A DNA stretch of 19,117 nucleotides, taken from positions 1-19,117 of the forward strand of contig JADHWK010000042.1 in NCBI GenBank assembly GCA_016783505.1, read 5' to 3'. The notes under the pieces are model-generated. The model was not told the origin of the DNA and ran no database searches. It was given only the letters and a program-made list of their open reading frames with translations. The number at the start of each line of letters is the position of its first letter. Position 1 is the stretch's first letter. Source of the DNA: Candidatus Zhuqueibacterota bacterium (GTDB lineage Bacteria; BS750m-G25). Of the stretch, positions 1 to 17,293 are shown piece after piece. The position numbers and the translations under genes were made by a program.

Positions 1-163
1 TTAAACCAAGATAGGAATTCGATCCCAGCATGATGACTTTTTTCCCGTTCATCACCACCTCGGTATCCTGATCGGACTGGATTTCCCGGAAATAGGGATA
101 AATTCCCTGGGCCATTACCTCCCGGGCGGCGGTGAAATTCTTAATCTTATCAAAAAATTTCAT
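1..163 (-). CDS. Serine palmitoyltransferase-like alpha-oxoamine synthase, N-terminal fragment
   Basis: This is the first 54 residues of a pyridoxal-phosphate-dependent alpha-oxoamine synthase; the gene runs off the left edge. The start is the ATG at 161-163. The visible protein reads [10 protein letters not shown], then [16 protein letters not shown], then [19 protein letters not shown]. The YPYFREI and GSNSYLGL blocks are the N-terminal signature of bacterial serine palmitoyltransferases such as the Bacteroides type. These condense serine with an acyl thioester to start sphingolipid synthesis in the cytoplasm. The family also contains BioF and glycine C-acetyltransferase, and the catalytic lysine lies outside the window, so the exact activity is inferred. 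Its start overlaps the end of the upstream phosphatidyltransferase gene by 14 bp, which implies translational coupling. Confidence 0.8.
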
Positions 164-740
164 AATTATTCCCTATTTTTCTGTATTTATCTGGCGGACT
201 TTTCATAAGGTTCAGAAAGACTTTAAAGTAACTGGTCAGCGAGACGGCTATCATTACCACTCCTATCCACATCATAATTAGACAGTAGGGTTCCCATCCC
301 AGGGTATAAAGAATGATCACCAAAGCCAAGATAATCGCTGTACGTTGGCCGATCTTATTGGAAGTCCCCACTGTATTTTTCAATCTGATGACTAAAAAAT
401 TGGCGGAGAGTATGGCCAGGTCCCGACCCAAAACCAGGACGACAAACCAAATTGGAATTTTAATTTCCCTGGGGAGGAACGTCAAAAAGATAATCACAAC
501 GGCGATGCAGACTTTATCCGAAACGGGATCAATGATCTTACCCCAGTAGGAGACCTGATTTAATTTCTTGGCTAAATAGCCGTCAACATTATCCGTAATG
601 ATAGCCAGAACCATAAAGAACATGGCCCAGAAGTTACCTGTGGGGGAATCTTGTTTTAAAAAGAAAAATATGGGGATGAGAAATAATAATCGAAAAGCGC
701 TGATAAAGTTGGGTATGGTAAAGACCCTTTTATCATCCAT
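150..740 (-). CDS. CDP-alcohol phosphatidyltransferase
   Basis: This 196-residue integral membrane enzyme transfers a phosphatidyl group from CDP-diacylglycerol to an alcohol. The family signature DX2DGX2A(R/K)X8GX3DX3D is complete: D50, D53, G54, A57, K58 in place of the usual Arg, G67, D71 and D75. Several hydrophobic segments follow (about 12-28, 36-50, 78-90, 98-118, 133-147, 152-172), and the length is normal for PgsA-like members. Phosphatidylglycerophosphate synthase is the commonest role. The overlap with a serine palmitoyltransferase-like gene makes an inositol- or other head-group transferase for membrane lipids equally possible. The ATG at 738-740 has only a weak ribosome site. It follows the truncated glycosyltransferase by 20 bp. 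Confidence 0.88.
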
Positions 741-3316: not shown

Positions 3317-4438
3317 TTAGATTTCTATCTCATAGATTCTATATTTTTTATACAGCTTCCCCCCTATTGCCTCGTCAAACCGATTGATCAAATCATTATC
3401 CTCCAGGTTCCACGACATTTCACACCAGCGGTAGCCCAATTTTGCCCCGGCCTTTTCCGTTTCATAGTACAAGACAGTATTGATGCCCGTACGCCGATAC
3501 TCTTTTTTGAGGCCAAATATCAGGGCTCGCAGGCCGGTTATTTTTCTCCTGTAATAGATAAGCTTAAGAATCCCAACCGGGCCCAGCCTACCATTGAGTC
3601 TTTTCAGCACCTGGTTGAAGTCGGGAATGGTAACACTGACGCCAACGGGCTCTCCGTTTACTTCAGCGAAAAGTACCAGTTCGGGCTCAGCAATGGGTTT
3701 TAGTTCCTTGGCCATTAAATCCATTTCCGCATCAGTCATGGGTACGAATCCCCAATTCATCTCCCAGGAAGAATTGTAGATATCCTTGATAAGCGCCACC
3801 TCTTGCTCGAATTTTTTCATATTAATAGGCCTTACCACGACATTCTCTTTTTTCTTTACTCTTTCCACCAGTCTGGCGATACGCTCAAGGACTCCTACTT
3901 CGCTCTTTAGGAAAGCGTACAAATCCTTCGCCTTTCGGAAACCATACCGCTCCATAAATTCAAGATAATATTTGGGATTATAAGGCATCATAATAACCGG
4001 ACTTGAATCGAAGCCCTCAAGGAGAAAGGCGCATTCATCGTTCATGCTCAGGTTCATCGGCCCTCGCAGGAGATTCATGCCGTTTTTCCGACACCATTTT
4101 TTGGCGGCGGTGAGCAGAGACTCGGCGACATTATAGTCTCGCACACACTCAAACAGACCGAAGAAGCCTGTGTTCTCCTGATGAAATTTGTTGTGGTTAA
4201 AGTCAATAATAGCGGCTATTCTACCAACCGGTTCGCTGTCTCTTCTCGCAAGGAACAGCTCCATCTCGGCGTGCTCGAAAAAAGGATGCTTCAGACGGTT
4301 CAATTTGAATTTCATTTCCTTAAGGAGCGGGGGTACCCAATAAAGGTCGCCATCATAGACCTTCCACGGCAAACGGAGAAAATCGTTGAGATCCCTTTTC
4401 CCCTCCACTCTATGTACACTAATCTTTTCTCTGTTCAT
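3317..4438 (-). CDS. YghO-like N-acyltransferase, candidate bacterial ceramide synthase
   Basis: This cytoplasmic protein of 373 residues has two GNAT-like halves. The strongest signature is GPMNLSMNDECAFLLEGFD (126-144), followed by MMPYNPKYYLEFMERYGF, which I know from the YghO-type family. That family includes the Caulobacter GNAT-like protein shown to act as a bacterial ceramide synthase, which N-acylates the product of serine palmitoyltransferase. The second half carries a GNAT core (VLFAEVNGEPVGVSVTIPDF), then FGLKKEYRRTGINTVLYYE, where the R/G-rich acyl-CoA loop would lie. Start: ATG 4436-4438, preceded by AAGGAGGG. It lies 81 bp after the methyltransferase gene and is the last gene of the lipid run. 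The serine palmitoyltransferase-like gene at the left edge makes the ceramide role plausible, but that link is inference. Confidence 0.75.
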   Translation of the reverse strand: MNREKISVHRVEGKRDLNDFLRLPWKVYDGDLYWVPPLLKEMKFKLNRLKHPFFEHAEMELFLARRDSEPVGRIAAIIDFNHNKFHQENTGFFGLFECVRDYNVAESLLTAAKKWCRKNGMNLLRGPMNLSMNDECAFLLEGFDSSPVIMMPYNPKYYLEFMERYGFRKAKDLYAFLKSEVGVLERIARLVERVKKKENVVVRPINMKKFEQEVALIKDIYNSSWEMNWGFVPMTDAEMDLMAKELKPIAEPELVLFAEVNGEPVGVSVTIPDFNQVLKRLNGRLGPVGILKLIYYRRKITGLRALIFGLKKEYRRTGINTVLYYETEKAGAKLGYRWCEMSWNLEDNDLINRFDEAIGGKLYKKYRIYEIEI

Positions 4439-4519
4439 GTTTCCCTCCTTCGGTCAAATTATGTCTACTGATTTCTTAATGTTGAAATTCTCACAAAGAA
4501 AGAAACAGCAACGGTTAAC

Positions 4520-5338
4520 CTAACAGACCCATTTTTGCAGCACGAAGCTTAGGTATATAACCCCTCCAGTCCGAAAACATTCATAAATTTTAGAACCTTT
4601 GACTCCGGCAAACTCTTGAAATAATTTTAACAACAACTTGGGTATTGATTTTTGAATAAGCACCATCTTGCGTTCATTGTCCAAATTCAGAGCCTCGATA
4701 ACATTGGGGATTATATTCGTTTCTTTGATGAGAGTCATTCCTGAACGGCGAAGCTGTTTGTAAAGTGTATCAATTTTGTCTTTGCCACGAAAGTCTGCGT
4801 AAAGAAAGTAACCACCTTGTCGGAGGATCCTCTTGACCTGCATAAGAAAAGCATCCATTGAACCATAACAGTGTGAAGACTCTACATTAACAATCACATC
4901 AAAGCTATTATCCTCAAAGGGCAGAAATTCAGCATCGGCCGTTACGAATGAAAGTCCTTCAACAAAATAACTCTTATTACAAAATGCCACGGCTTTTTCT
5001 GAGAAATCAACACCAACCATTGTTTTTGGTTCTAAATAACGTTTGATATAATGTGATCCTCCTCCTCGACCGCTGCTTACCTCTAGCACATTTAAATCCC
5101 TAAGGTTAACAACATTGGCAACATGATGATAGAGTTGAACGCAGTAGCGATTTGGCTCGTCATCATCGCCTAAGTTAAGCTTTTCTGTTTGAGGGTCTAA
5201 TGGGGCATAACCATAGTTCATGAATGACCAGTCTTCTCTCTGATAGTATCCTGCCAGGAACTGGTACCACTGTCTCCGGATTAATCTTCCAAGATAAGGA
5301 GAAATTCGGCAAAGTGCCATGAATAGCTTAGTTATCAT
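4520..5338 (-). CDS. Phthiotriol/phenolphthiotriol-type SAM methyltransferase
   Basis: This class I SAM-dependent methyltransferase has 272 residues. The SAM-binding motif is VLEVSSGRGGGSHYI (84-98), the acidic motif II is GVDFSEKAV (109-117), and the motif DAEFLPFEDNSFDVIVNVES follows at 135-154. The pattern DDEPNRYCVQLYHHVA before motif I, then NVESSHCYGSMDAFL, and the G.KGS..Y...R.GG.IY ending, match the mycobacterial Rv2952 family remarkably well. Rv2952 O-methylates the phthiotriol chain of cell-envelope waxes. An N-terminal amphipathic stretch (1-30) may attach it to the membrane. Start: ATG 5336-5338 with AAGG upstream. It follows the PlsC gene by 18 bp and lies in a lipid-modification operon, so a hydroxylated lipid substrate is likely; which one is unknown. 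Confidence 0.82.
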   Translation of the reverse strand: MITKLFMALCRISPYLGRLIRRQWYQFLAGYYQREDWSFMNYGYAPLDPQTEKLNLGDDDEPNRYCVQLYHHVANVVNLRDLNVLEVSSGRGGGSHYIKRYLEPKTMVGVDFSEKAVAFCNKSYFVEGLSFVTADAEFLPFEDNSFDVIVNVESSHCYGSMDAFLMQVKRILRQGGYFLYADFRGKDKIDTLYKQLRRSGMTLIKETNIIPNVIEALNLDNERKMVLIQKSIPKLLLKLFQEFAGVKGSKIYECFRTGGVIYLSFVLQKWVC

Positions 5339-5356
5339 GAAATGTCTACCTTTTTG

Positions 5357-5965
5357 TCAAGTTCTGTAAATAGCAAGAATTTTATTTCTTACCCTCTCAG
5401 TAACTTCATTTATTATTTTTCGGTCATACCCTTCCTTATAATAATTGTCAAAATAAATAGGTTTCCCAATTTTAACTGTGATTTGATGTGGCCTGGGAAT
5501 TTTTTTACCATAAGGGAGTACTCGGTTACTTCCGATAATGACTACTGGTATAATCGGGGCCTTAGCCTCTAGTGCAAATCTGGCAATACCCTGCTTAAAG
5601 CGCCCCAGTGTTCCATCTTTACTGACATAACCTTCGGGAAAGATAGCAACGATCTTTTGCTGCTGTAATATTTCGGTAACTATCTTAAAGGTTTGATGAC
5701 AAAAACCCATGCGGTTAACTGAAATTCCATTAAGTCTAGTAAACAGAAATCTTAAAAATGTATTTTTAAACAGTTCTTTTTTTCCGAGTGTGTAAATTTC
5801 CTGTTGAACGGCAGCCATTAGAATAAAAGCATCCAGAGTGCTAAAATGATTAGCGGCTAAAATAAATGTCTCATTCTGCGGCAAATAGTAACATTCCTCA
5901 ATCCGCAGCCTCGAATATATCTTAAAGAATACCCAAGATACTATCTTAACAAATTTGTAAAGCAT
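5357..5965 (-). CDS. PlsC-family 1-acylglycerol-3-phosphate acyltransferase
   Basis: This membrane-associated acyltransferase has 202 residues. The catalytic HX4D motif is NHFSTLD (H40, D45), and the acceptor-binding motif is FPEG (109-112), followed by GTLGRFKQGIARFALEAKAP, the usual third block, and IIPVVIIG. A hydrophobic segment at 1-18 anchors it. I start at ATG 5963-5965. The frame also extends to a TTG at 5987-5989, but that codon has no ribosome site and sits 2 bp from the stop of the gene before it. PlsC enzymes acylate lysophosphatidic acid, but family members also acylate ornithine lipids, glycolipids and other lysolipids. Placed between a lipid kinase and a lipid methyltransferase, this one may serve a special lipid rather than housekeeping phospholipid synthesis. 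Confidence 0.88.
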   Translation of the reverse strand: MLYKFVKIVSWVFFKIYSRLRIEECYYLPQNETFILAANHFSTLDAFILMAAVQQEIYTLGKKELFKNTFLRFLFTRLNGISVNRMGFCHQTFKIVTEILQQQKIVAIFPEGYVSKDGTLGRFKQGIARFALEAKAPIIPVVIIGSNRVLPYGKKIPRPHQITVKIGKPIYFDNYYKEGYDRKIINEVTERVRNKILAIYRT

Positions 5966-5991
5966 CGTCCGCTCAGTATCTTTTAACAAAA

Positions 5992-6873
5992 CTACTTAGG
6001 AACCATCACCTTTAGGGCCTTAGGAACTAAGGACACCTTCAGCCTGGCATCCCCATCTAAAGCTTCACCGTCCACCTGTATGGGTGCCGGCCCGGGTAGA
6101 ATAATCTCCACATTCGAAGACCGATAGATTTCAAAATAACGGGTTCTATCAATATGTCCGGTGAAAAGTTTCGGAAGATGATAGATGGCTTGTAATATAT
6201 TCAGGTCATTAATAATGCAAATATCCAGTAAGCCATCGTCAGGCTGTGCCTGTGGTGCGATAATAGCCCCGTTGCCAAATTGTATGGTGTTAGCCACGGC
6301 CACCAAAAGGGCCTTTACAGTGATCTGTCGGTGATCAAACCTGAGGGCAATCTTTTTAGGTGAGTAGTTGAAAAACTCTTGAAGACCAACATAGAAATGA
6401 GGTAGTAACCCTCTCCGTGACCTTGTATTAAGCCGTTTTGTCACTACGGCACCAAACCCAACCCCGGCGGTAGCGAAAAAATATCGGCCTTGTATTTTGC
6501 CTACATCTATTCTCCTGAATTTACCTTGACATAATATTTGACAGGCTTTCTTGAGTTGGAGAGGAATTCCCAATCCTCTCGCCAGACCATTTCCCGAACC
6601 TATAGGAATAATTCCTAAGCATGCATCTGAATTAACCAATGCTGAGGCCACTTCATTAACCGTGCCGTCGCCTCCAACGGCCGCCACCACATCGAAACCT
6701 TCCCGTATCGCTTCACGGGCTGTCCGCAGAGCATCGCCTCGGCCCACGGTCTGTTGGATGTGATACTCACACGGAAATTTATCTAAGACACTGGCAAGGA
6801 TTCGTTTCATTCTAGCCCCATTTCTGCCCCTGCCAGCTATTGGATTTAAAATAAATTTTATTTTAAAGGCCAT
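5992..6873 (-). CDS. Diacylglycerol/sphingoid-base-type lipid kinase (DAGK catalytic domain)
   Basis: This ATP-dependent lipid kinase of the YegS/DgkB/LCB5 fold has 293 residues. The N-terminal domain opens with KFILNPIAGRGR and carries the nucleotide-binding motif GGDGTVNEVA (67-76) and IPIGSGNGLARGLGIP (89-104). The C-terminal beta domain has the conserved DDGLLDICI and QVDGEAL blocks. I choose the ATG at 6871-6873, which starts directly at the family N terminus and lies 7 bp after the aarF stop; a TTG further up at 6907-6909 would overlap aarF. Such enzymes phosphorylate diacylglycerol, sphingoid bases, ceramide or lipid A analogues, and the motif alone cannot tell which. With a serine palmitoyltransferase and a ceramide-synthase-like protein nearby, a sphingoid or ceramide kinase is worth considering. 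Confidence 0.87.
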   Translation of the reverse strand: MAFKIKFILNPIAGRGRNGARMKRILASVLDKFPCEYHIQQTVGRGDALRTAREAIREGFDVVAAVGGDGTVNEVASALVNSDACLGIIPIGSGNGLARGLGIPLQLKKACQILCQGKFRRIDVGKIQGRYFFATAGVGFGAVVTKRLNTRSRRGLLPHFYVGLQEFFNYSPKKIALRFDHRQITVKALLVAVANTIQFGNGAIIAPQAQPDDGLLDICIINDLNILQAIYHLPKLFTGHIDRTRYFEIYRSSNVEIILPGPAPIQVDGEALDGDARLKVSLVPKALKVMVPK

Positions 6874-6880
6874 TTCTTTG

Positions 6881-8566
6881 TTACAACTTAGCTGAACGCA
6901 TAATAGCAATAATCAGCCACAAGCCCAAAACCGCTGCTATCAGATACCCCACAATCCCGATAGCCGGGAAACCAAATACTAACGGCCCTTTGTCCAGTTG
7001 AACAATCAAGGATGAACCAATAATCAGCGCCGCGATGATCATACTAAACGACAGGCGATTGCTGGATTTATCCAATTCTGAAATGAGGTGGTCCAGACCG
7101 CGATGTTCAAACTTAATGCTTAATTCGCCTTTCTTAATCTTGGTTATAATTGCCCGAATTTCCAGCGGCAAAATCTTAAACAGGCGGTTAAACTCGTCGA
7201 GAGTGCTGGCATAGTCTTTTAGATACCTTCGGGGATCCAACTTGCGAACCATTATTTCTTGAACATAAGGTTTAGCCAGGGAGATCATATCAAAATCAGG
7301 ATCAAGTTCGCGACCAATTCCTTCTTCAGTCGCTAGAGCCTTACCCATCAGGGTCAAATCAGAGGGTATTTTAATGCGATGCCTTCTGACAATTTCCATA
7401 GCCTCATTAATTACTATGCCAATGTTAATTTGATTGAGGGGAACCTGATAATAGCGATCTAGAAAATCCAGTATATCACGCCGCAATGCTCTGACATCCG
7501 AGACATCTTCTATAATGCCGATATGCCTGAAGGCACTGATTATCCTATCAGCATCCTTGTGCACGATTCCAGAAAGAAGATTGCCCACTTCTTCCCTCAT
7601 CTCATCATCCAGTCGTCCCATCATGCCATAATCCAGGGGAGCAATGACGTTATTTTCCAGCACAAAAATGTTGCCTGGATGGGGATCGGCATGAAAGAAG
7701 CCGTGCTCAAAGACCTGTTTTAAAATTGCCTGGGCTCCATTAACGGCGATGATCTTCCTGTCCAGTCCTGCCGCCTCTAATTTCTCTATTTCCGAAGCCT
7801 TTATACCATCAATATACTCCATGGTCAAAACACGGTCAGTGGCCAATTCCCAGTAAACTTTAGGAACATAGATGGTATCATCCCCGGCAAAATTTCTGCG
7901 AAAACGATCTATATTACGCCCCTCTTGAATGAAGTCTAATTCCCGCCGAATAGTTTTAGCAAACTCCTCAACGATGGCTACGGGATTGTAAAGTTCGCTT
8001 TCAGGGATGCGCCGTTCAACCAACACTGCCAGGTCAAAAAGAATACTTAAATCAGTTTCGATAACTTTCTGAATATTGGGGCGCTGAATTTTCACCACCA
8101 CCTGCTCACCATTTTCAATGACGGCTCGATGAACCTGCGCAATTGATGCTGCGGCCAACGGTTCTTCCACAAAGGAATCAAATAGCTGTTCCACCGGGGC
8201 GCCCAATTGCGCTTGAATGACCTCTCGTGCTTGCTGAACAGGAAAAGGCGGCACCTCATCCTGGAGCTTTTTAAATTCATTAATAAAATCTTCGGGGATC
8301 AGATCCGGACGAACGCTTAGCATTTGACCCAGCTTAACGAACGTAGGCCCCAATTCTTCAAAGGCCAGCCGTACCCGTTGCGCCCGGGTAACCTTCTCTA
8401 AATCCCTTTCTTTTAACCTGGGAATCACCTTTTTCCCCAGTTTAATGTAGTATTCGATTTTCAACCTATTAATGACATCGTCAAAACCATATTTGACCAG
8501 AATCATCAAAATCTGGCGGTATCTCTTAAGATGGCGATAGGTCTTGGTAAATTTGGTTATTTGCAT
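6881..8566 (-). CDS. AarF/UbiB/ABC1 (ADCK-type) atypical kinase
   Basis: This 561-residue member of the UbiB/COQ8 family carries every family hallmark. These are the KxGQ motif in FVKLGQMLSVRPDLIP (K78, Q81), the Ala-rich nucleotide loop AAASIAQVHRA (138-148) that replaces the Gly-rich loop, the kinase lysine in VVVKIQRP (K159), HADPHPGN (292-299) as catalytic loop, and the metal-binding LDYG (D312). The C terminus has two predicted membrane helices (about 510-525 and 533-556), as in typical UbiB proteins. COQ8/UbiB ATPases help extract or present lipid quinone precursors to their enzymes. Here no quinone genes are nearby, and the neighbours are a phasin and lipid-modifying enzymes, so a lipid-mobilising role is plausible. 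It starts 82 bp after the phasin gene, behind a hairpin. Confidence 0.93.
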   Translation of the reverse strand: MQITKFTKTYRHLKRYRQILMILVKYGFDDVINRLKIEYYIKLGKKVIPRLKERDLEKVTRAQRVRLAFEELGPTFVKLGQMLSVRPDLIPEDFINEFKKLQDEVPPFPVQQAREVIQAQLGAPVEQLFDSFVEEPLAAASIAQVHRAVIENGEQVVVKIQRPNIQKVIETDLSILFDLAVLVERRIPESELYNPVAIVEEFAKTIRRELDFIQEGRNIDRFRRNFAGDDTIYVPKVYWELATDRVLTMEYIDGIKASEIEKLEAAGLDRKIIAVNGAQAILKQVFEHGFFHADPHPGNIFVLENNVIAPLDYGMMGRLDDEMREEVGNLLSGIVHKDADRIISAFRHIGIIEDVSDVRALRRDILDFLDRYYQVPLNQINIGIVINEAMEIVRRHRIKIPSDLTLMGKALATEEGIGRELDPDFDMISLAKPYVQEIMVRKLDPRRYLKDYASTLDEFNRLFKILPLEIRAIITKIKKGELSIKFEHRGLDHLISELDKSSNRLSFSMIIAALIIGSSLIVQLDKGPLVFGFPAIGIVGYLIAAVLGLWLIIAIMRSAKL

Positions 8567-8595
8567 GGCATTGCCTCAAATTTGAAAATTAAATT

Positions 8596-8630
8596 ATCGG
8601 CGCCGGGTGGTTATTAGACCCGACGCCGAT
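8596..8630 (-). terminator. Strong hairpin between phasin and aarF genes
   Basis: The arms 8596-8608 (atcggcgccgggt) and 8618-8630 (acccgacgccgat) form a 13-bp GC-rich stem with one mismatch and a 9-nt loop. On the transcribed minus strand the 3' arm is followed by aatttaattttc, a moderately U-rich tail. The stem begins 19 nt after the phasin stop and ends 30 nt before aarF starts. It may act as a partial terminator or mRNA-stabilising element, so that the structural phasin is made in excess of the kinase. Confidence 0.65.
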
Positions 8631-8648
8631 AGATGGGTGTAACTACCC

Positions 8649-8945
8649 TCACTTTGCCATCTTTTTCGCCAAACCATCGATCTTCTTTTCCAATGCTTCA
8701 AAGTCCTTCTTAGTTGGCAGACCCAGTTTTGCAACTGCCTTCTCGATCTCTGCACTAATTTTGCCCGCCAGCACCTTTTCCGCTTCTTCTGCCTTCTTAA
8801 GGAACTCATCGATGGCTGTAGAGCGTTCTTCCCTGGCTAATTCACCCTTTTTGATAAGTTCATCTACCAGGGCTCCGGCTTTTTCCCTGGTAAGGGTTAC
8901 TGCACCCATGCCCAACAAGACGCCTTTTTTGAGCAGCTCGAACAT
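8649..8945 (-). CDS. Phasin-like polyhydroxyalkanoate/lipid-granule-associated protein
   Basis: This small, highly charged, almost wholly alpha-helical protein of 98 residues has a hydrophobic N terminus (MFELLKKGVLLGMGAVTLTR) followed by Lys/Glu-rich heptads. Near the C terminus it ends LGLPTKKDFEALEKKIDGLA. That ending is the pattern of the PhaI/PhaF-type phasin family, whose members coat polyester or neutral-lipid granules. I choose the ATG at 8943-8945, 7 bp after AGGAGGT; the in-frame GTG at 8952-8954 lies inside that ribosome site and can be excluded. It follows the beta-barrel gene by 18 bp and precedes aarF. Phasin-like genes beside UbiB-family kinase genes are a recurring arrangement. 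No PHA synthase is in view, so the bound hydrophobic body is unknown. Confidence 0.75.
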   Translation of the reverse strand: MFELLKKGVLLGMGAVTLTREKAGALVDELIKKGELAREERSTAIDEFLKKAEEAEKVLAGKISAEIEKAVAKLGLPTKKDFEALEKKIDGLAKKMAK

Positions 8946-8963
8946 AGCAAACACCTCCTTTAC

Positions 8964-10313
8964 TTAAAAACTCACCTTCACTTTTACATAAACCTCATCA
9001 TTTTCCTTCACTCGACTGAACAAGCTTTCCCCCTTGCCTTCGATAAGAAATGCACCGAGGGTCAGTTCAATATTATCCGACGGGCAGTAATCGATCTCTG
9101 GCGCACCCACAAAGCCATAACTATTTTTCACATCATCCCAATCTTCGATACTGATAGCCCCACCGAAGGGCACAATCTTAAGTCCGTCATTGAGAAACTT
9201 TTTCTCGAAACGGAAAACAATATAATCCTTCAACTCATCCCTACCCCTTTCGTGGATGAATCCATGAAGATATTGAGCATTCACGTATAAGCCGTTCTTA
9301 AAGGTGTAGTCACCACCGACGACATATTTGAAGTAAGGCTCGTCATCCAGTGCCGTTGAGGTCTGGGTCGTCATGCCCATGGGTGTAGGGAGGGTGGTGG
9401 ACATAGCCACCCTTTCAGGAATAGTCAGGGCACCCTCGGCCCAGATGCCCACTTTTCCGATGGCCCCAGCCATGTCAGCGCCGACAATCTGCATCCTGGG
9501 AAAGGTGAGGGTTGATGAAACATCCACCGTGCCCAGGGTGTCCACCGGTGTTATGGTTACTGAATTGAATAAAGGCAGGTCGTCCCGTCCATTGAAATAG
9601 CTCAAGGAAACATCATAATTAAGCAGGGTTGTGGCAACTTTAAATCCTGTCATTGAGGATTCGGAAAGTTTTTCTTCGGGCAATATCAAACTGTCCGAAA
9701 TATCTCGGATGATCATGCCTGGCGGAAGGGACATAGGTGCAGAAAAGGCGGCAGCCCAGTCTGGTGGGGGTAAAATCGCTGGTGTGAATACTGGGACAAA
9801 AACGCCCGTCAGCATCGCATTTCCAAGGTAGTAAGTAGCTTTTAGGGAGCTGCTCCCCAACCTCTCCCCGAAGTTGAACAGGTCTTCCAGATCGTCGGGA
9901 TTCAGGTTGTCAGTGGGATTGAGCCTATCGGCCGTTCCCCAGGTAATTCGCTGTCGGCCTATACGAACGTCAAGATTTTCCATAAGGAATCCGTAGATAT
10001 CCACATAAGCTTCCCGAAATTCCAATGCCCATGGGTAGACCTCATCCTTTTCCCGCCGTTGCAGGTCCCATGAAGCTGCTGATTTAGGAAATCCAAATCC
10101 CCGCAACCGGAGTTCACTGTAAAAATGAAGCTTATCCGAGGAATTACCTTCAAACTTTAGACCCAAGCGATTTTCGTTCCAGGTATAGTGTTTGTCGCCT
10201 TGCAAGCGACATCGGTTATCGGTTTCCACGTAACCACCAATCTCTACTTGCGAGAACAGATTTGAAGCAAAAATAACCATCACTATAAGAGAAAGAATCG
10301 TTTTTTTCTGCAT
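8964..10313 (-). CDS. DUF1302-like outer-membrane beta-barrel protein
   Basis: This 449-residue predicted outer-membrane protein has the signal peptide MQKKTILSLIVMVIFASNLF (1-20, cleavage near SQ). It has many alternating amphipathic strands and a C-terminal phenylalanine (VYVKVKVSF), as needed for BAM-dependent insertion. The block RIGRQRITWGTADRLNPTDN (117-136) resembles the G(R/K)Q...WG.(S/A)D.LNP.D region of DUF1302-type proteins, which co-occur with RND/MMPL exporters and lipoprotein-sorting-like proteins. The start is ATG 10311-10313, 7 bp after AAGGAG. The frame is open a further 20 codons, but that extension would bury the signal peptide. It lies 159 bp after the LolA-like gene. Inferred role: outer-membrane exit or acceptor for the lipid carried by the exporter. 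The DUF1302 assignment rests on motif memory. Confidence 0.78.
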   Translation of the reverse strand: MQKKTILSLIVMVIFASNLFSQVEIGGYVETDNRCRLQGDKHYTWNENRLGLKFEGNSSDKLHFYSELRLRGFGFPKSAASWDLQRREKDEVYPWALEFREAYVDIYGFLMENLDVRIGRQRITWGTADRLNPTDNLNPDDLEDLFNFGERLGSSSLKATYYLGNAMLTGVFVPVFTPAILPPPDWAAAFSAPMSLPPGMIIRDISDSLILPEEKLSESSMTGFKVATTLLNYDVSLSYFNGRDDLPLFNSVTITPVDTLGTVDVSSTLTFPRMQIVGADMAGAIGKVGIWAEGALTIPERVAMSTTLPTPMGMTTQTSTALDDEPYFKYVVGGDYTFKNGLYVNAQYLHGFIHERGRDELKDYIVFRFEKKFLNDGLKIVPFGGAISIEDWDDVKNSYGFVGAPEIDYCPSDNIELTLGAFLIEGKGESLFSRVKENDEVYVKVKVSF

Positions 10314-10472
10314 GGTTGTGCTCCTTAGTTTTAGATTTAATCCACCGACAATATTACTCGGCTTAGTTTTCACCCTTTCACCTCGGCACCCCTGCTCCTC
10401 TGCTTGTTAATATTCAAATAAACTTAGATGAATAGAAATTCTTTCTGTCAAAAAGGATTATTCATTGAAGAA
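10314..10472. repeat. Spacer with a dispersed GC-rich repeat and weak promoter-like motif
   Basis: The 159-bp gap contains gcacccctgctcctctgct at 10386-10404. Its reverse complement shares 13 bp with 18001-18013 and 12 bp with the reverse complement of 18130-18141, so it belongs to a dispersed intergenic family. On the minus strand a TTGACA at 10446-10451 is followed 16 bp later by ATCTAA, a weak -10, so an internal promoter for the beta-barrel gene is possible but not convincing. Confidence 0.45.
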
Positions 10473-11219
10473 TCATTTCCTCCGCTTCAAATACCGTTGG
10501 GTGAAGAGCTTATCGGTCAACCCGGTGTCAAATTCCATCTTGTCAACCAACATTTTGGTGCTGTGCTTCTGTTTTACATCCTTCATTTCCATTTCTTCAG
10601 TATACCAATAATTTCCCTGCTTTTTGAGCTTGCGGCGCTCCATTATTTTCCAGAGCCTACCGCCTTTATTGTAATACTCAATTTTGACAGGGTAGAAGTT
10701 GTCCTTTCGCACCCACATTTTCAACTTGCCGTAATCTTTTTTGACATCAGGCTTCGGCGTAAGCTCCAGAAGATAGCACTCTCCGGTGGTTCCCAACAGC
10801 TTCGGATCGTACTCCTCAGCGAACTTGAAGGCGCTCAGGTCATCGTAGGTAAAGTCCGTACCTGCGAATTTGGTATTCTTTACATGCGAAGCAATGCGGC
10901 GCACTTTTTTGAATGCCGGCAGGTAAAGGTACTGGACATCATTGGGAAGCCCCAGAAAAGCGATTCCTTTTTGGTCAGCAGGGGAGAGAAAACGCACCAG
11001 GCGCTTATCGTCACCCTTTTGATACATCTCTGTCTCACGCACCTTTTCCCAGCCGTCTTTGTCAATGAGAATCATTTTGGACAGCATCTTTTGGTCTTTA
11101 GGTGCATTGACCACCGCGTCGGCTTTTTTCAGAATATCCACGGCGGTTAGCTCCTGTGCCTCTACCCCAGCGAAAAGTACCAGGGTGAAGATTGCGGTGA
11201 GTAGGCTAATTCGTCTCAT
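10473..11219 (-). CDS. LolA-like outer-membrane lipoprotein-sorting-type protein
   Basis: This periplasmic protein of 248 residues has the signal peptide MRRISLLTAIFTLVLFAGVEA (1-21). The mature part contains ADAVVNAPKDQKMLSKMILI, then VRFLSPADQKGIAFL, YLYLPAFKKVRRIA and KFAGTDFTYDDLSAF (117-131). These are characteristic of the LolA-like family annotated as outer membrane lipoprotein-sorting protein, which regularly accompanies RND/MMPL exporters and beta-barrel partners. The fold is a half-barrel that holds acyl chains. The motif GTDFTYDD is the family's best marker. Start: ATG 11217-11219, after AGGAG. It is 43 bp downstream of the helical protein gene. In this operon it would shuttle the hydrophobic cargo from the exporter towards the outer membrane; the cargo is unknown. 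Confidence 0.88.
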   Translation of the reverse strand: MRRISLLTAIFTLVLFAGVEAQELTAVDILKKADAVVNAPKDQKMLSKMILIDKDGWEKVRETEMYQKGDDKRLVRFLSPADQKGIAFLGLPNDVQYLYLPAFKKVRRIASHVKNTKFAGTDFTYDDLSAFKFAEEYDPKLLGTTGECYLLELTPKPDVKKDYGKLKMWVRKDNFYPVKIEYYNKGGRLWKIMERRKLKKQGNYWYTEEMEMKDVKQKHSTKMLVDKMEFDTGLTDKLFTQRYLKRRK

Positions 11220-11262
11220 TGTACTATCTCCTATTGTTTTGGGTTAATGAGGGTTCAGTAAA

Positions 11263-11685
11263 CTACCTTATGGTATCCAGATGTTTTTTAACCCGCAGGC
11301 AATGATTTTCAAACAACATAAAATGGGAATCCAGATGCTTTATATTACGGCGTTGCTCCCTACCCGATTCAATCTCCTTTCTGATGTGTTTTACGTCATC
11401 ATAAATGGCACTCAGGTCAGAGAATGCCAGATTTATCCCATCATTAAGTAAGGCCGTTTTCCGTTCATCATCGGCCATTTCTGATGGCATTTTCATAATA
11501 GCAGTCGAGAGCGAAGCCAGATTCCCTTCGATCTCTTTTAAAATCTCCATTGCACTTTTTACATCCTCATTGTCCACCCCCAGACTAATCCAGCTTGAAT
11601 TCTCAAGCTTGATCCGATTGACCAGCTTTTTTGCTCTATATAGGATGTTCTGGAGCTCCTCAATACTTCTTTCTAAATCCTCCAT
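11263..11685 (-). CDS. Hypothetical helical protein, family not recognised
   Basis: This 140-residue protein is predicted to be almost entirely helical, with no signal peptide or membrane segment, so it should be cytoplasmic. It opens MEDLERSIEELQNILYRAKK and continues with acidic and basic heptads, then EMADDERKTALLNDGINLAF and a basic C terminus. I recognise no catalytic motif. The start is ATG 11683-11685 with GAGGAGG upstream. It sits between the radical SAM gene (69 bp) and the LolA-like gene (43 bp), all on one strand, so it is very likely a component of the same system, for example an adaptor, a small helical lipid or acyl carrier-like partner, or a scaffold. The presence of a good ribosome site and the tight context support it as a real gene. 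Confidence 0.7.
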   Translation of the reverse strand: MEDLERSIEELQNILYRAKKLVNRIKLENSSWISLGVDNEDVKSAMEILKEIEGNLASLSTAIMKMPSEMADDERKTALLNDGINLAFSDLSAIYDDVKHIRKEIESGREQRRNIKHLDSHFMLFENHCLRVKKHLDTIR

Positions 11686-11754
11686 CGGGTTTCCTCCTCA
11701 AATGGTTTTTTTCATAACTATATCTGAGTTGGACGAACCGCCTTTAGAAACTGC

Positions 11755-13224
11755 TTAAGCCGCTTCCTTTTTCTCCACCCGTTCCCTCTCCGGTCCAATG
11801 TATTCCTTTTCCCAGATGGGTCGGGTGAGACGGTCTACCTCATCGCCGCAGGCTACCAGTCCCCTGTAATAAGCCGGATCCTTGAGGGCCTCTCCCGCCT
11901 CTCGATCCCCTGGTCTTGCTCCTGCCGCATCAATGATCTCTCGGGCCTCGCGGTGATGATCCTTGGAAATGCAGGGAACAATCTGGTTTCCTACCTCATG
12001 CGCGGGTTTCATATAGCTGTAATCCCGCTGCCACTCCCGGATAGACCGGAAAAAGGGACTTATCAGGACGGTGTTCAGGTCTCCTCCTTCTCTGTAAACC
12101 TGGTAGATATTATCTACTGTGTAAGGATTAAAGGCACAGGGCAGGCAGTTCCCGTTCCAATCAATGTAGAAGTATCCCCCTGAACGACCCGCTGAGATGC
12201 AGCCGTTGGATACCGCCCCACTGTTCCAGAAGTCAGCGATAAACAGGGCTTTCTCCCGTATCAGATGCTGCTCCCGCTGGAACATCCACTTGCGTTGTTC
12301 CGGGGTAACCATTAGATCAAGGGTGTAGCTTCGCCCGATGGGCATGTACTGAAAAATCCAGCCGTAGACGGCCCCCTGCTGCTCAAAATAGAAGTCCAAA
12401 AACTCGTCGCTGAGGACGAACTCGGCGTTGGAGCGCATTGCCGTGATGGAAATCCCGAAGGGGACACCATTATTCCGCAGATTTTCGAACGCTTTGAGAA
12501 TCCGCTTGTGAACACCCTTTCCTCGCCGGGCGTCGGTCTCATTCTCAAGTCCTTCTACTGAGATTGCCGGTGTAATATTACCCACCTCGGCCATCCGTTG
12601 AGCCATTTTCTCATCAATGAGCGTCCCGTTGGTATACATGAGGAAATACTGGTCGCTGTGTTTGGCGGCGACATCAATGAGGTCTTTTCCTTCACTCTCC
12701 CACATAAGCGGCTCTCCCCCGGAAATTACGGTGAAGTGGGAACCCCAAAGTTCTCTCTTCTCCGTCAGGATACGATCCGCTGTTTCGTAGTCCAATTTCT
12801 CCGCATTGGCGGCGCAGCTGGAAGCATAACACCCGATACAGCGGAGATTGCACCGCTTGGTGGGACTGATGAGCAGAAAAAAAGGGACACCGAATCCGTG
12901 GGTCTCCTCGAAGGCTCTTCTCGTAGCATTGTCCTCCAAAAGTACATTGCCCACCAGAACCCTGATAAGGCCTCGGCGAACAGACGGCGAAACCCTCATG
13001 TTTTCCAGAGCCCTATTGATGGAGTGAAGCATGTTCCTGAGCATGTAGTACTTGTCTTCCTGAACCCGTCGGGGTCCGCCGCTGTCGTTTCTTTCGACGA
13101 GGGTGTGATATATTTTCTTCTCCCCCACCTTCAAGGCCAGCCCCCGAAGGGCATCGTTGGCTAAAACGGCGTTAACCAAAGTGAGGAAAGGCATGGCCAG
13201 CATTGATTTTACTGTGGGCAGCAT
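11755..13224 (-). CDS. Radical SAM protein with SPASM-like C-terminal cluster motif
   Basis: This is a 489-residue radical SAM enzyme. The [4Fe-4S] motif CX3CX2C is RCNLRCIGCY (C125, C129, C132), with GGEP at 169-172 and YTNGTL after it. The C-terminal part has C342, the typical YFYIDWNGNCLPC block (C360, C363) and C418, a SPASM/Twitch-like set of ligands for auxiliary clusters. The N-terminal 110 residues are helical and unassigned. SPASM enzymes usually modify peptides, but some radical SAM enzymes join or rearrange lipids. It follows the exporter gene by 33 bp and has GGAGGT before ATG 13222-13224, so it is part of the exporter operon. Its substrate is unknown; a lipid carried by the exporter or a partner peptide are both possible. 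Confidence 0.9.
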   Translation of the reverse strand: MLPTVKSMLAMPFLTLVNAVLANDALRGLALKVGEKKIYHTLVERNDSGGPRRVQEDKYYMLRNMLHSINRALENMRVSPSVRRGLIRVLVGNVLLEDNATRRAFEETHGFGVPFFLLISPTKRCNLRCIGCYASSCAANAEKLDYETADRILTEKRELWGSHFTVISGGEPLMWESEGKDLIDVAAKHSDQYFLMYTNGTLIDEKMAQRMAEVGNITPAISVEGLENETDARRGKGVHKRILKAFENLRNNGVPFGISITAMRSNAEFVLSDEFLDFYFEQQGAVYGWIFQYMPIGRSYTLDLMVTPEQRKWMFQREQHLIREKALFIADFWNSGAVSNGCISAGRSGGYFYIDWNGNCLPCAFNPYTVDNIYQVYREGGDLNTVLISPFFRSIREWQRDYSYMKPAHEVGNQIVPCISKDHHREAREIIDAAGARPGDREAGEALKDPAYYRGLVACGDEVDRLTRPIWEKEYIGPERERVEKKEAA

Positions 13225-13257
13225 GATGGCACCTCCTTTCTGATTAGTTGAAAAATA

Positions 13258-16236
13258 TCAAGAATTTCTATTCTTAAGTTTTTTTATCCTTGCCTTTGCT
13301 CTACCAATTACGGCATCGGTTCCGCCTGCCACTGCAGTAGCAAAGCCAGAAAAATCCCCGATACACTTTGCTTTGGTGATCAAAATTAGGGCTGGCAGGA
13401 TGGTAACAGCACTGAAGGCGCTGGTCATCATGGTGAGGGCCATTAGATAACCAAACCACTTCATGGGAACGATATCCCCGGTAACCAGCACCAGAAAGCC
13501 CATCATCACCGTCACGGCGTTAATCATAATCGCCTTCCCGGTGGTCTCCAGGGTTCTGTCCAGGGCCTCCAACTCGCTCTTGCTTTTAGCAAACTCCACC
13601 TTAAATCGGGTGATGAAATGAATGGCGTAATCAATCCCAACCCCCATGGCTATGTTGCCCATTAGAATTGTAAGCTCATCCAAAGGTATATCTAAGATTA
13701 CCATCAGTATAAAATTGATAAGAATGGCAAGGATAATCGGGAAAACAGACATCAGCCCACCGACCAGCGATTTTAGCCTGATGGCAAGGAGGACAAAGAC
13801 TAAAAATATGGCAAGGCCCAGGCCCAAGCTCTGACTCCTCATAATCTTTCGATCCAGTTCCTTGTAGATCAAGGGTAATCCTGTTTGCCAAGCAGCCAGT
13901 TTGACCTCGGCCTTACCAGGGTTATCCTGTGCTGAAAAAAGGCTGGCATATTGGGAACTTTCCACAACAATCCAATCTTCGTTGATCTCCCAAACATCAT
14001 CCCGTAGATCTTCCAGAAATTCAGTGTTATTAGTCAATTTTCGGGAAAGAAGCGGCTTTAAGTCTTCAAGCAGATGGTTAACCCTGGCCCATTTTGCCTG
14101 CTCGTTGATAACAGCCACTATGGATTCAGCAGCATATTCCAGAACCACGGGATCATCCGCATAGACTTCTTTTGATACATTCCATTTAAGAATTGTACTA
14201 ATGGCTTCTTCGTCCGGTCTGCTGGTCTGCAATAGCTTGCCAATATTATTAACAATTCGTTCAATAACTTTTTCGGATTCTATCTGGACATCGGCTTCAT
14301 CGCTTAAGAAATAATCGCTAATTTTTTGCTTAATGATCTTTATGGTAGCTTCGTCGAACCTCTCATGATCAGCCAGGACCGCTGCCGTGATGACCTTTTC
14401 CAAATTGGCATCAGGGATTTGTTCATTCACCGCTCTTTTTCTAATGTCCCATTTCATTTTGGATACAATCCCTGCAACACGCTCTTTTTTTAATCGTCCA
14501 GCCAGTTCACCCTCGGCTTGAGAAATCCTTGCCTCGACCAAATTGGTCTTCAGGTGTTGTCTCAAATAGTCTTCAACTGCATCCACAGCAGCGATGGCCT
14601 TTTTCGTATTTACCGAACCCATCTTGGCCTGAATCAGGCCTTCGGTAGCCTCGCTGTTGATCAACTGATCCAGCACCTCATTTCCTTCAATGAAGAACCA
14701 GAGGTTGGCCACCCCTTCTCTGGTATCAGGGATTGTCCGATGGCCATTCATCACCCAATTCATTTCACAGATAAGATCCGCAATTGATTGGGGATCGTTA
14801 ATATTGGGCAGGGATTCCAGGTATTTCTCAAACCTGAGCATCTCTTTTAACACAAAGGGATTTTTTATGTCACCTTTGACAAAGAGTTGAATTGGAATGG
14901 CACCACCCAGTTTTTGTTCTAAGAGCTCTTCGGCTTGCCTGATTTCACTATCTTTCTCAAAATAGCTGGCATAATCCACCTCACGATCCAGTTTTGGAAT
15001 AGCGACCAGAGAGATTAAAATAACAACCGCACCGAGGACGAGAATCAGTTTCTCCCTTTTGAGGACAAACCCTCCCAATCTGTCCATAAATCTTGTCGCC
15101 CAGTTGTCCTCTATCCCTCTGTGATCTACTTTGACTTTTTTGACCTTTAAGAAGGAAAGGACTGCGGGCAAAAAGGTTACTGACATGATCATGGCGACCG
15201 TTACACCCAAGGCAGTACTGGCACCAAATTCCCGGATCACATTCAAATCGGAAGATAAAAAGGAAAGGAAGCCGATTAGAGTAGTGACACCAGCCAGCAG
15301 TATAGGAACGCCCACTTCGCTCAAAGCATGTTTTATTCCCTCAATTTTGGTGTCCCCCCGGCGGACATCCTCATTGTATTTGGCCACCATGTGGATGCCG
15401 TACGCACTGCCAATGGCGATGAGCAAAACAGGTACCACCTGGGAAGCCATGGTGAGTGAGATATTCATTAAGCTCATTACCCCCATAGCCCACACCGAGC
15501 TGATAAAAACGGTGATCAGTGGAAGAAAAACCCCACGAAAGCTTTTGAAACTAAAATAAAGAGAAGCCATCACCAACAGGGAAACCAGGGGAAGAAATTT
15601 TTTCAAATTTGCCATTATGAGGTCAATCAGGAAGACCATTTGAAATGGTAGGCCACCGTAATAGATCTTCTCATCACCCGGGGTTTCTGCGATGATCTTT
15701 TTTAGCTGGCGTCCGATGGCTATTTTGTCAACCTCTTCTCGCAAGCGAGCAATTACGAGGGTTACCTCGCCGTCAGCGGAAACCAAGCTTCCCCGATACA
15801 TATTCTTGGAAAGTGTGTACTCACGCAGACTTTTCAGTTCTTCCGGAGTCTGAGGGATGTTATGTTTATCAATAAGCTTACTGATTTCCAGCCCCCATTC
15901 GGTCTTTTTTATGTCCAGAATATCGGTCAACCCCATGACATGTGAGACTTCGTCCAACCGTTTGAATCTTTCAATAATTGTATTGACCCTGTTAAGGGTT
16001 TTATAATTAAAGACATCATCGGTCTCCAAAGCCACCATGGCCAGGGAATTACCACCGAATTTTTGCCCGACTTCATTGAAAAGAATAACAATGGGATCAT
16101 CCTGGGGCATGTAGCTTAAAATATCGCTGTTTATTTTGAGGTCTTTCAGTGAATAGCTGAAGAAGGCCGTAACCAGCATGGTAGTCACAATAATGGGAAT
16201 TCTGAATCTGATAACTAAATCGGCAAACTTTTTCAT
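13258..16236 (-). CDS. RND/MMPL-family exporter (HAE3-like) with enlarged periplasmic loop
   Basis: This inner-membrane proton-driven exporter of 992 residues has two repeats of six helices. Helices lie at about 8-30, 212-230, 233-258, 262-286, 307-328, 335-363, 394-414, 800-819, 823-847, 852-877, 898-918 and 925-953. The first periplasmic loop (31-211) is normal; the second (415-799) is about twice as long and holds a charged, helical insertion around 520-780. Helix 10 has the proton-relay motif GVGIDYAIHF (866-875 region), while the matching place in helix 4 reads IGSAYGIHMV, without Asp. Related proteins move hydrophobic lipids such as hopanoids or wax precursors. Start: ATG 16234-16236, after GGAGGT. 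It opens the export part of the operon, 79 bp after tetR. Confidence 0.93.
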   Translation of the reverse strand: MKKFADLVIRFRIPIIVTTMLVTAFFSYSLKDLKINSDILSYMPQDDPIVILFNEVGQKFGGNSLAMVALETDDVFNYKTLNRVNTIIERFKRLDEVSHVMGLTDILDIKKTEWGLEISKLIDKHNIPQTPEELKSLREYTLSKNMYRGSLVSADGEVTLVIARLREEVDKIAIGRQLKKIIAETPGDEKIYYGGLPFQMVFLIDLIMANLKKFLPLVSLLVMASLYFSFKSFRGVFLPLITVFISSVWAMGVMSLMNISLTMASQVVPVLLIAIGSAYGIHMVAKYNEDVRRGDTKIEGIKHALSEVGVPILLAGVTTLIGFLSFLSSDLNVIREFGASTALGVTVAMIMSVTFLPAVLSFLKVKKVKVDHRGIEDNWATRFMDRLGGFVLKREKLILVLGAVVILISLVAIPKLDREVDYASYFEKDSEIRQAEELLEQKLGGAIPIQLFVKGDIKNPFVLKEMLRFEKYLESLPNINDPQSIADLICEMNWVMNGHRTIPDTREGVANLWFFIEGNEVLDQLINSEATEGLIQAKMGSVNTKKAIAAVDAVEDYLRQHLKTNLVEARISQAEGELAGRLKKERVAGIVSKMKWDIRKRAVNEQIPDANLEKVITAAVLADHERFDEATIKIIKQKISDYFLSDEADVQIESEKVIERIVNNIGKLLQTSRPDEEAISTILKWNVSKEVYADDPVVLEYAAESIVAVINEQAKWARVNHLLEDLKPLLSRKLTNNTEFLEDLRDDVWEINEDWIVVESSQYASLFSAQDNPGKAEVKLAAWQTGLPLIYKELDRKIMRSQSLGLGLAIFLVFVLLAIRLKSLVGGLMSVFPIILAILINFILMVILDIPLDELTILMGNIAMGVGIDYAIHFITRFKVEFAKSKSELEALDRTLETTGKAIMINAVTVMMGFLVLVTGDIVPMKWFGYLMALTMMTSAFSAVTILPALILITKAKCIGDFSGFATAVAGGTDAVIGRAKARIKKLKNRNS

Positions 16237-16315
16237 TCTACTACCTCCAGTTGTGTGTCTTTTTGTTTAAACAAATAGACTAAATCAGTTTTATGGTCAC
16301 TTTAGGTAAAAAAAA
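16237..16315. promoter_or_regulatory. tetR-exporter spacer with candidate operator
   Basis: The spacer holds a perfect 14-bp palindrome, tttgtttaaacaaa, at 16262-16275. Directly beside it, tagactaa at 16276-16283 repeats the core of the inverted repeat in the tetR leader (tagactaa at 16900-16907). A weak minus-strand promoter (GTGACC, 17 bp, TATTTG) overlaps this core. A TetR dimer could bind here to control the exporter separately. The shared 8-mer is short and the second site is not a full inverted repeat, so this is a suggestion. Confidence 0.4.
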
Positions 16316-16885
16316 TTATCTTTTCTCAATCCCCTTAAATAAAATGTCTAACAATAGATCAATACTTTCCTCCATCGCTATTTGACTGTCTTCTATAATC
16401 CAGGGGTATTCCAGCCCCTTCAAAGCGGTAACGATAGCAAATGATGTAACCTCAATATTCTTTATCATAAATTCTCCTTTCGTAATCCCATCCACCAGAA
16501 TCTCCTGAACAATCTTTTTTTCTTCCAAGAAGCTTTCCTTTCGTGCAAACTCAGCCTGGGGCCAAAATTCAGACACATTTTCCCGGGTAACATTATAAAG
16601 ATTGGCCAGGTTTTTAAGATATCGCATTTTGGTTAAAACAAAGGTCCGCATCTTTTGCTGGGGCGTTTCCACTTTGGAAATCTCTTCCCTGATCTTACCC
16701 ACCAGAAATTCGCTTTCCTTTTTAACCACCCCATAAAAAACGTCCTCCTTATTAGTGAAATATTTGTAGATCGTTCCCTTCGCCACCCTGGCCAATTTAG
16801 CTATTTCATCAATGGTGGTCTTCCTCAGACCAAACCGCCCGAACAAACCCTGGGCAACCGTCAAAATATTTTCTTTTTTTCCCAT
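16316..16885 (-). CDS. TetR/AcrR-family transcriptional regulator
   Basis: This dimeric repressor has 189 residues. The N-terminal helix-turn-helix is complete: ILTVAQGLFGRFGLRKTTID, then EIAKLARVAKGTIYKYFTNK and EDVF, with the usual TIYKYF recognition helix. The C-terminal ligand and dimer domain (60-189) is helical and divergent; it binds an unknown, probably hydrophobic ligand. The start is ATG 16883-16885; no Shine-Dalgarno is visible in the short leader, which instead carries an inverted repeat likely to be its own operator. It lies directly upstream of the RND exporter, the classical place for a regulator that senses exporter cargo. It probably represses itself and the lipid operon until the lipid or an inducer accumulates. 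Confidence 0.92.
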   Translation of the reverse strand: MGKKENILTVAQGLFGRFGLRKTTIDEIAKLARVAKGTIYKYFTNKEDVFYGVVKKESEFLVGKIREEISKVETPQQKMRTFVLTKMRYLKNLANLYNVTRENVSEFWPQAEFARKESFLEEKKIVQEILVDGITKGEFMIKNIEVTSFAIVTALKGLEYPWIIEDSQIAMEESIDLLLDILFKGIEKR

Positions 16886-16895
16886 CTGTTAAAAC

Positions 16896-16910
16896 ATATT
16901 AGACTAATAT
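16896..16910. promoter_or_regulatory. Inverted repeat in tetR leader, probable TetR operator
   Basis: The perfect inverted repeat atattag-a-ctaatat lies between the promoter's predicted start point (near 16923) and the tetR start codon. Size and place fit a TetR-family autoregulatory operator. Binding there would block transcription and also cover the region where a ribosome site would lie. Confidence 0.6.
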
Positions 16911-16929
16911 CGTTTTTTAGTTCACCACC

Positions 16930-16958
16930 AATATACAACATTTTTTTGAATTTGTCAA
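16930..16958 (-). promoter_or_regulatory. Sigma-70-type promoter of tetR and the lipid operon
   Basis: On the minus strand the -35 box TTGACA (16953-16958) is perfect. The 17-bp spacer is ideal, and the -10 box is TATATT (16930-16935). Transcription would start near 16923, giving a leader of about 38 nt. It lies between the upstream terminator and tetR, so it is well placed to serve the whole downstream run. Confidence 0.75.
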
Positions 16959-17034: not shown

Positions 17035-17240
17035 ATAATGAGCCCCGATTCGGAAAATACCGTCGGCCCGAAGGGTCTTGCCTGCCCGGTCCGTAGGAGG
17101 CTACGCTCCCCAGACGGGTCGTATGACCAGGGGGAAACGATCTTGGGAAACGACACTGAAATGATTGCTGATTGATGCTGGAACCTAGGTTTTAACAATT
17201 AGCAACCTGCCCGCCAGGTCTTGGCAGGCGGGTTAACAAT
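17035..17240. repeat. Intergenic GC-rich repeats and hairpin between tetR and the methyltransferase
   Basis: No gene is visible here. The stretch 17060-17130 contains ggaggctacgctcc (17096-17109), which occurs inverted at 18078-18091, and an arm pair ggtc-gtat-gacc at 17117-17128. A hairpin with arms 17204-17215 and 17223-17234 (12 bp, one wobble, one mismatch, 7-nt loop) follows. Direct repeats of ttaacaat lie on both sides of it (17192-17199, 17233-17240). The block cctgcccgcc (17206-17215) recurs inverted at 18111-18120. These look like members of a dispersed intergenic element; the hairpin may also serve as a first terminator for the methyltransferase, 60 bp after its stop. Confidence 0.6.
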
Positions 17241-17293
17241 CAACAATTCAGTGGTTTTCAGTGTTGAATTTCCAGATTTGGGATAAAATAGGA

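Follow-up and report, generated by a model that had tools for sequence, protein, structure and literature searches.

The twelve consecutive minus-strand genes considered here occupy most of a 19,117-nucleotide stretch, referred to as the window, which is contig JADHWK010000042.1 (C55) of a metagenome-assembled genome (MAG) of Candidatus Zhuqueibacterota bacterium (GCA_016783505.1; 60% complete, 2.5 Mb, lacking rpoB). Their reading as an operon for lipid synthesis and trans-envelope export, proposed in an initial annotation of the window, is well supported. With moderate confidence, the operon is taken to be controlled by its TetR regulator and to make, modify and export a specialised lipid of the membrane, for which a ceramide-type sphingolipid is the likeliest identity. 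It is a fusion of a transport module (TetR-MMPL-LolA_like-barrel) and a modification module (TetR-radical S-adenosylmethionine (SAM) enzyme-phasin-UbiB, in places with patatin), which relatives mostly keep at separate loci. The sphingolipid reading is supported by serine palmitoyltransferase (SPT) genes at the edge of the window and at a second place in the same genome, and by the linkage of the operon's GNAT N-acyltransferase to SPT.

Each of the 12 open reading frames (ORFs) named earlier exists on the minus strand, with the coordinates collected in Table 1, and their families are confirmed by Pfam and NCBIfam models, whose curated cut-offs are the ones referred to throughout. The short spacings described for them also hold, with intergenic distances of -29 to +99 bases, and terminator-like sites within the twelve-gene region are not in excess of shuffled sequence. 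Gene order, put forward as the check on the operon, is kept among relatives as the two recurrent modules. These are partly fused, in differing order, at two further loci, L006 (MMPL end, radical SAM, small helical protein, LolA) and L014 (MMPL, LolA, radical SAM, HEAT, phasin).

The transport module combines an inner-membrane exporter, a periplasmic carrier and an outer-membrane beta-barrel. The LolA-like carrier has a hydrophobic, signal-peptide-like N-terminus, also scores over the cut-off of the DUF1329 model (E 9e-10, 38.8 bits) and belongs to a family with three other matches in the same genome. In relatives the MMPL gene is conserved adjoining the LolA-like and barrel genes, and barrel orthologues likewise adjoin MMPL and LolA genes. 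Found via barrel homologues, such cassettes occur in eight related genomes, with a TetR gene seen upstream in seven.

The modification module centres on the radical SAM enzyme, in which C125, C129, C132, C342, C363 and C418 are invariant across 79 sequences. Its N-terminal ca. 110 residues are predicted to be helical, the first helix being hydrophobic (structure model and hydropathy). Relatives of this enzyme were gathered as 80 loci from named genomes and 29 from a sample of 145 genomes, and 77 of those from named genomes entered the neighbour counts. Within 6 kb and in the same orientation, TetR accompanies the radical SAM gene at 31 of these 77 loci, phasin at 21, UbiB at 18, patatin at 15 and SPT at 4, while the chance expectation for a gene such as UbiB in a neighbourhood of this size is, by our own estimate, about 1%. 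Carriers include Aminicenantes, Planctomycetota, Eisenbacteria, Krumholzibacteriota, Latescibacterota and Calditrichota. In about 20 genomes a phasin is found together with UbiB and the radical SAM enzyme, and no polyhydroxyalkanoate (PHA) synthase or granule genes are present among the window genes, to which that search was confined; the lipid storage that had been proposed is thus not supported. From alignment, the ATG at 8945 is a more likely phasin start than the GTG at 8954.

The small helical ORF encodes a real, conserved protein, with 72-86% identity in close relatives and 29% in distant ones, and is kept near the radical SAM gene at L006, L008, L009 and L012; its structure model has no significant match in the PDB. 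It is proposed to be a partner of the radical SAM enzyme. UbiB, which shows two C-terminal hydrophobic segments by hydropathy, invites comparison with ubiquinone synthesis, where this atypical kinase works with small accessory proteins and likewise stands beside a small helical protein. By that analogy, a small helical protein beside UbiB could help a membrane-bound substrate to reach a soluble enzyme. Unlike in ubiquinone synthesis, UbiB is paired in the window with a phasin and serves a radical SAM enzyme in the proposed scheme, with no quinone genes seen next to them. Two features of the relatives' loci may be recorded separately. An NAD-synthase-like gene recurs near the radical SAM gene (L009, L023, L094), and two Patescibacteria-labelled contigs, possibly through misbinning or transfer, have the radical SAM gene in one row with genes for a TetR and a GT2-like protein (L031, L032).

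The regulator connects the two modules. In a tree of 28 TetRs, the window TetR groups with those of Aminicenantes radical SAM loci and of MMPL cassettes (support 96/98). The same clade holds the TetRs of L030 (TetR-patatin-radical SAM-SPT) and L181 (TetR-FabH-like-MMPL-LolA-barrel), which are 93% identical and come from different genomes. Through this one TetR subfamily the radical SAM module is linked both to SPT and to the transport cassette, and the three may form one regulon. At the head of the operon, the strong promoter noted earlier is found, and the candidate for the operator is the perfect palindrome ATATTAGtCTAATAT, which sits between the promoter and the TetR start and to which TetR would presumably bind. 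This palindrome has a single exact copy in the 2.5 Mb genome, and a genome-wide scan for additional candidate copies gave no excess over the control. The upstream regions of related TetR genes have no palindrome in common; the -35 region ACTTGACAAA is common to 6 of 18 of them.

The lipid cluster extends past 3,317, where its boundary had been drawn, since a CDP-alcohol phosphatidyltransferase gene (PgsA-like, under cut-off) and the start of an SPT gene, the latter overlooked earlier, lie on the same strand at the left end of the window. The last 139 bases of contig C62 are exactly the first 139 bases of the window, and completed on C62 the SPT reaches 614 bits. Downstream of it, in the same orientation, come a second GNAT gene (GNAT2, 51% identical to that of the window), two small ORFs that by eye resemble a nucleotidyltransferase/HEPN pair, an epimerase of the HpnA/3-beta-HSD kind (best model HpnA, under cut-off; a similar protein lies near SPT on L162) and a second YegS-type kinase.

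A further locus of the same genome, on contig C57 (L003/L150, 63-7018), starts within another SPT gene. The end of this gene and the start of a LolA-like gene share 4 bases. FadL-like, patatin, flippase-like, second DUF1302-like barrel and DUF3108 genes follow (names partly by eye or after annotated relatives), and the LolA-like and barrel genes show 66-67% DNA identity to those of the window. Because of this locus, SPT is coupled to the LolA-barrel route independently of a doubtful junction on the window contig (see below). The C57 fragment was considered as the other half of the window SPT and rejected, as the exact overlap shows that C62 continues it. SPT also stands directly or closely downstream of the radical SAM gene at L016, L018, L019 and L030; for these adjoining homologues, as for the C57 fragment, SPT models rank first. 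At L016, L018 and L019 a PHB_acc_N/phasin-type protein of different phasin architecture is encoded directly upstream of radical SAM and SPT (domains checked on L019, the same as L164).

Homologues of the window GNAT (45-60% identity) are present in 14 of 24 related genomes. An SPT of at least 450 bits occurs in all 14, against 4 of the 10 others (p = 0.0016, indicative only, since the genomes are related and the MAGs incomplete). SPT is adjacent to the GNAT gene, or no more than about 8 kb away, on the own contig C62 and in Zixibacteria (L154), Melioribacteraceae (L162), Latescibacterota (L161 and L164) and Calditrichaceae (L151). The last of these clusters holds GNAT, three helical proteins, a 59%-identical barrel, a Mla-like ABC system (read by eye), PlsC, a FabH-like gene and SPT, and is possibly another sphingolipid export cluster. 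The product had been described as perhaps sphingolipid- or wax-like: the SPT genes and the GNAT-SPT linkage favour the first, while nothing found supports a wax.

Table 1. Features of the window, with strand and the main evidence for each assignment.
Feature	Position	Strand	Evidence
Serine palmitoyltransferase (SPT) start	1..162	-	First 54 codons, runs off contig; NF047600 positions 4-56 at 160-2
CDP-alcohol phosphatidyltransferase	150..740	-	PF01066 E 3.5e-30; overlaps SPT start; beyond possible junction
GNAT N-acyltransferase linked to SPT, proposed ceramide N-acyltransferase	3317..4438	-	PF00583
SAM methyltransferase, lipid O-methyltransferase kind	4520..5338	-	NF045823 E 7.5e-72, NF045825 E 3e-62
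PlsC-type acyltransferase	5357..5989	-	PF01553 E 1.8e-26; HX4D motif, NHFSTLD in translation
YegS/DAGK_cat-type lipid kinase	5992..6909	-	TIGR00147 171 bits, over cut-off
UbiB/ABC1 atypical kinase	6881..8566	-	TIGR01982 511.9 bits, over cut-off 487.55
Phasin-family protein	8649..8954	-	PF05597 43.5 bits, cut-off 28.8
DUF1302-like outer-membrane beta-barrel	8964..10373	-	PF06980 E 1.2e-4, 21.6 bits, just under cut-off 23.2
LolA-like periplasmic lipid carrier	10473..11219	-	PF17131 E 1.6e-60, 204 bits, over cut-off
Small helical protein	11263..11685	-	Predicted four-helix bundle; model pLDDT 72
Radical SAM enzyme with auxiliary-cluster (twitch/SPASM-like) region	11755..13224	-	PF04055 E 6e-23
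MMPL/RND (HAE3-like) inner-membrane lipid exporter, 992 aa	13258..16236	-	PF03176 E 1.6e-51, 175.7 bits
TetR regulator	16316..16885	-	PF00440 E 1.5e-13
Candidate TetR operator ATATTAGtCTAATAT	16896..16910	.	Perfect 7-1-7 palindrome, 15 bases
Sigma-70-like promoter TTGACA-17-TATATT	16930..16958	-	11/12 consensus match

From the gene families and their neighbourhoods we infer a substrate, an order of steps, a direction of transport and a role for the radical SAM enzyme. The sphingoid base would come from SPT, whose genes lie immediately downstream and at a further place in the genome. The GNAT enzyme would N-acylate this base, and the YegS-type kinase, PlsC and the methyltransferase may decorate the product or lipids related to it. 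A lipid chain would be modified at the membrane by the radical SAM enzyme acting with the small helical protein, phasin and the UbiB ATPase, of which the latter two perhaps extract or present the hydrophobic substrate. MMPL would then lift the product from the inner membrane, the LolA-like protein ferry it over the periplasm and the barrel insert it into, or pass it through, the outer membrane. That the radical SAM-phasin-UbiB module alters sphingolipids, for example by joining ceramide chains, and that the MMPL-LolA-barrel route delivers a new sphingolipid class to the outer membrane is a more specific and rather improbable version of this scheme.

Among described systems, the bacterial ceramide pathway Spt-bCerS-CerR of Caulobacter and relatives is comparable in that a putative SPT, an N-acyltransferase and an epimerase/dehydrogenase-type gene are clustered (own C62; L162), along with a DAGK_cat-type kinase. 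Unlike in that pathway, the N-acyltransferase of the window has no curated family match, and the radical SAM enzyme, UbiB, phasin and the MMPL route fall outside what has been described. Kinases acting on sphingolipids in P. gingivalis and Caulobacter belong to the DAGK_cat/YegS superfamily. In P. gingivalis, dihydrosphingosine is phosphorylated by PG1348, which resembles human sphingosine kinase (PMC9045371), and in Caulobacter the ceramide kinase is CC_1160 (PMC11324152). A lipid kinase within a sphingolipid cluster has a precedent in each of them. The two models closest to the window methyltransferase, phthiotriol-dimycocerosate and Mtf2, both place it under their cut-offs. Lipidomics of the Black Sea points to many uncultured sphingolipid producers (PMC11334938), and no described route moving bacterial sphingolipids to the outer membrane was found in the open-licence literature. 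Such delivery becomes testable with a regulated operon in which SPT partners are joined to an MMPL-LolA-barrel route.

Several points weigh against a sphingolipid product. The completed SPT stays below the NCBIfam equivalog cut-off of 640 bits, and the GNAT enzyme has no specific NCBIfam match or curated ceramide-synthase model (Caulobacter CC_1154 being outside the comparison). At window positions ca. 1197-1204 the end of a DctQ gene overlaps an N-terminally truncated glycosyltransferase with no DctM present. Rearrangement or misassembly may therefore affect the segment that separates the twelve-gene operon from SPT, and this possible assembly junction weakens the direct link of operon to SPT on the window contig. 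The broad radical SAM family shows no co-occurrence with SPT over 145 diverse genomes (p = 0.8), and the sphingolipid link therefore rests on the close radical SAM subfamily, of whose genomes 18 of 24 have an SPT, a proportion confounded by ancestry, and on gene neighbourhood. Finally, a function in glycerolipid metabolism would suit PlsC and the lipid kinase just as well.

The last point leads to the alternative that survives best, in which the radical SAM enzyme is a Mss-like synthase of membrane-spanning lipids, or another cross-linker of lipid tails, acting on glycerophospholipids, with PlsC, lipid kinase and patatin remodelling glycerolipids and the SPT linkage incidental. The neighbourhood of the radical SAM gene is indeed rich in glycerolipid-type enzymes such as patatin and PlsC. 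The own genome also encodes a 1436-aa DUF2229 protein, possibly of the PlsA/Ger kind, which carries this domain; the domain occurs in T. maritima as well. DUF2229 tends to occur in carriers of the broad radical SAM family (13/24 vs 39/121, p = 0.06; p = 0.06-0.09 over the tests made), yet this link is weak. Like the tetraether synthase Tes (7tol/7tom) and the bacterial Mss, the window protein is a radical SAM enzyme among lipid genes, and it has the core fold in common with Tes: its structure model (pLDDT 93.5) matches 7tom with Z 18.2, and a Tes profile reaches E 2.9e-6 over the core region only. The nearest folds, however, are SkfB, anSME and SuiB (Z 23-25; SkfB 24.7), and the sequence ranks likewise, so that neither ranking favours an identification as Tes. 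It differs from Tes in having only three conserved cysteines beyond the radical SAM motif and an N-terminal helical domain of its own, and stands nearer to SPASM/twitch enzymes. Because surveys of Mss name several of the same phyla, with homologues also held by the radical SAM-carrying Chloroflexota, Planctomycetota, Latescibacterota, Acidobacteria and Patescibacteria (PMC11868695), and because of the DUF2229 protein, a membrane-spanning-lipid role keeps some weight. A glycerophospholipid substrate nevertheless leaves the SPT neighbours and the common TetR unexplained, and we consider it unlikely, if worth serious attention.

The transport trio raises another alternative. The operon as a whole had been described as matching no known system, which holds only in part. 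The trio resembles AmeABCD of Castellaniella defragrans (HAE3 RND, DUF1302 and DUF1329; PMC6394551) and P. putida PP_0765/0766/2018/2019 (DUF1302/DUF1329 type; PMC10866462), as one cassette of an inner-membrane HAE3/MMPL pump, a LolA-fold periplasmic protein and a barrel close to the DUF1302 type, though just under the cut-off of that model. AmeABCD has a second periplasmic protein, AmeC (COG4447), without counterpart among the twelve genes. These systems act in monoterpene efflux and Tween 20 use (PMC6394551, PMC10866462), and the window trio could similarly serve import or tolerance, moving an external hydrophobic compound (hydrocarbon, terpene or detergent) while the enzymes modify that compound or the membrane in response. 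Unlike AmeABCD, though, the window cassette is joined to lipid-synthesis genes and the radical SAM/phasin/UbiB module rather than to catabolic genes, none of which were recognised in the operon or linked loci, and the co-encoded GNAT, PlsC, SPT and lipid kinase are biosynthetic. TetR regulators are typical of efflux and tolerance systems, which counts in favour of this explanation, but overall it seems improbable. A chance string of two or three unrelated co-directional lipid-envelope units would fit the separate loci of the transport and radical SAM modules in most relatives and the failure to find the kinase-PlsC-methyltransferase run as a unit elsewhere, but it is very improbable given that partial fusions recur in differing order, one TetR subfamily heads both modules and gaps are short across all twelve genes.

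Returning to the operon as a whole, no paper in the open-licence literature was found to describe the radical SAM-phasin-UbiB module, either on its own or fused to such a transport cassette. In the same literature there was no description of a radical SAM enzyme with MMPL/DUF1302/LolA, only unrelated matches for phasin with UbiB or radical SAM, and nothing relevant for sphingolipids with MMPL/RND transport. The conservation of a TetR-radical SAM-phasin-UbiB module over many phyla points to a radical modification of lipids for which no description was found. As a minor observation, an intergenic sequence with an inverted repeat at window positions 17136-17282 is a dispersed short repeat, with 76-92% identity to two sites on C62 (L148 2084-2192 and 5102-5201).

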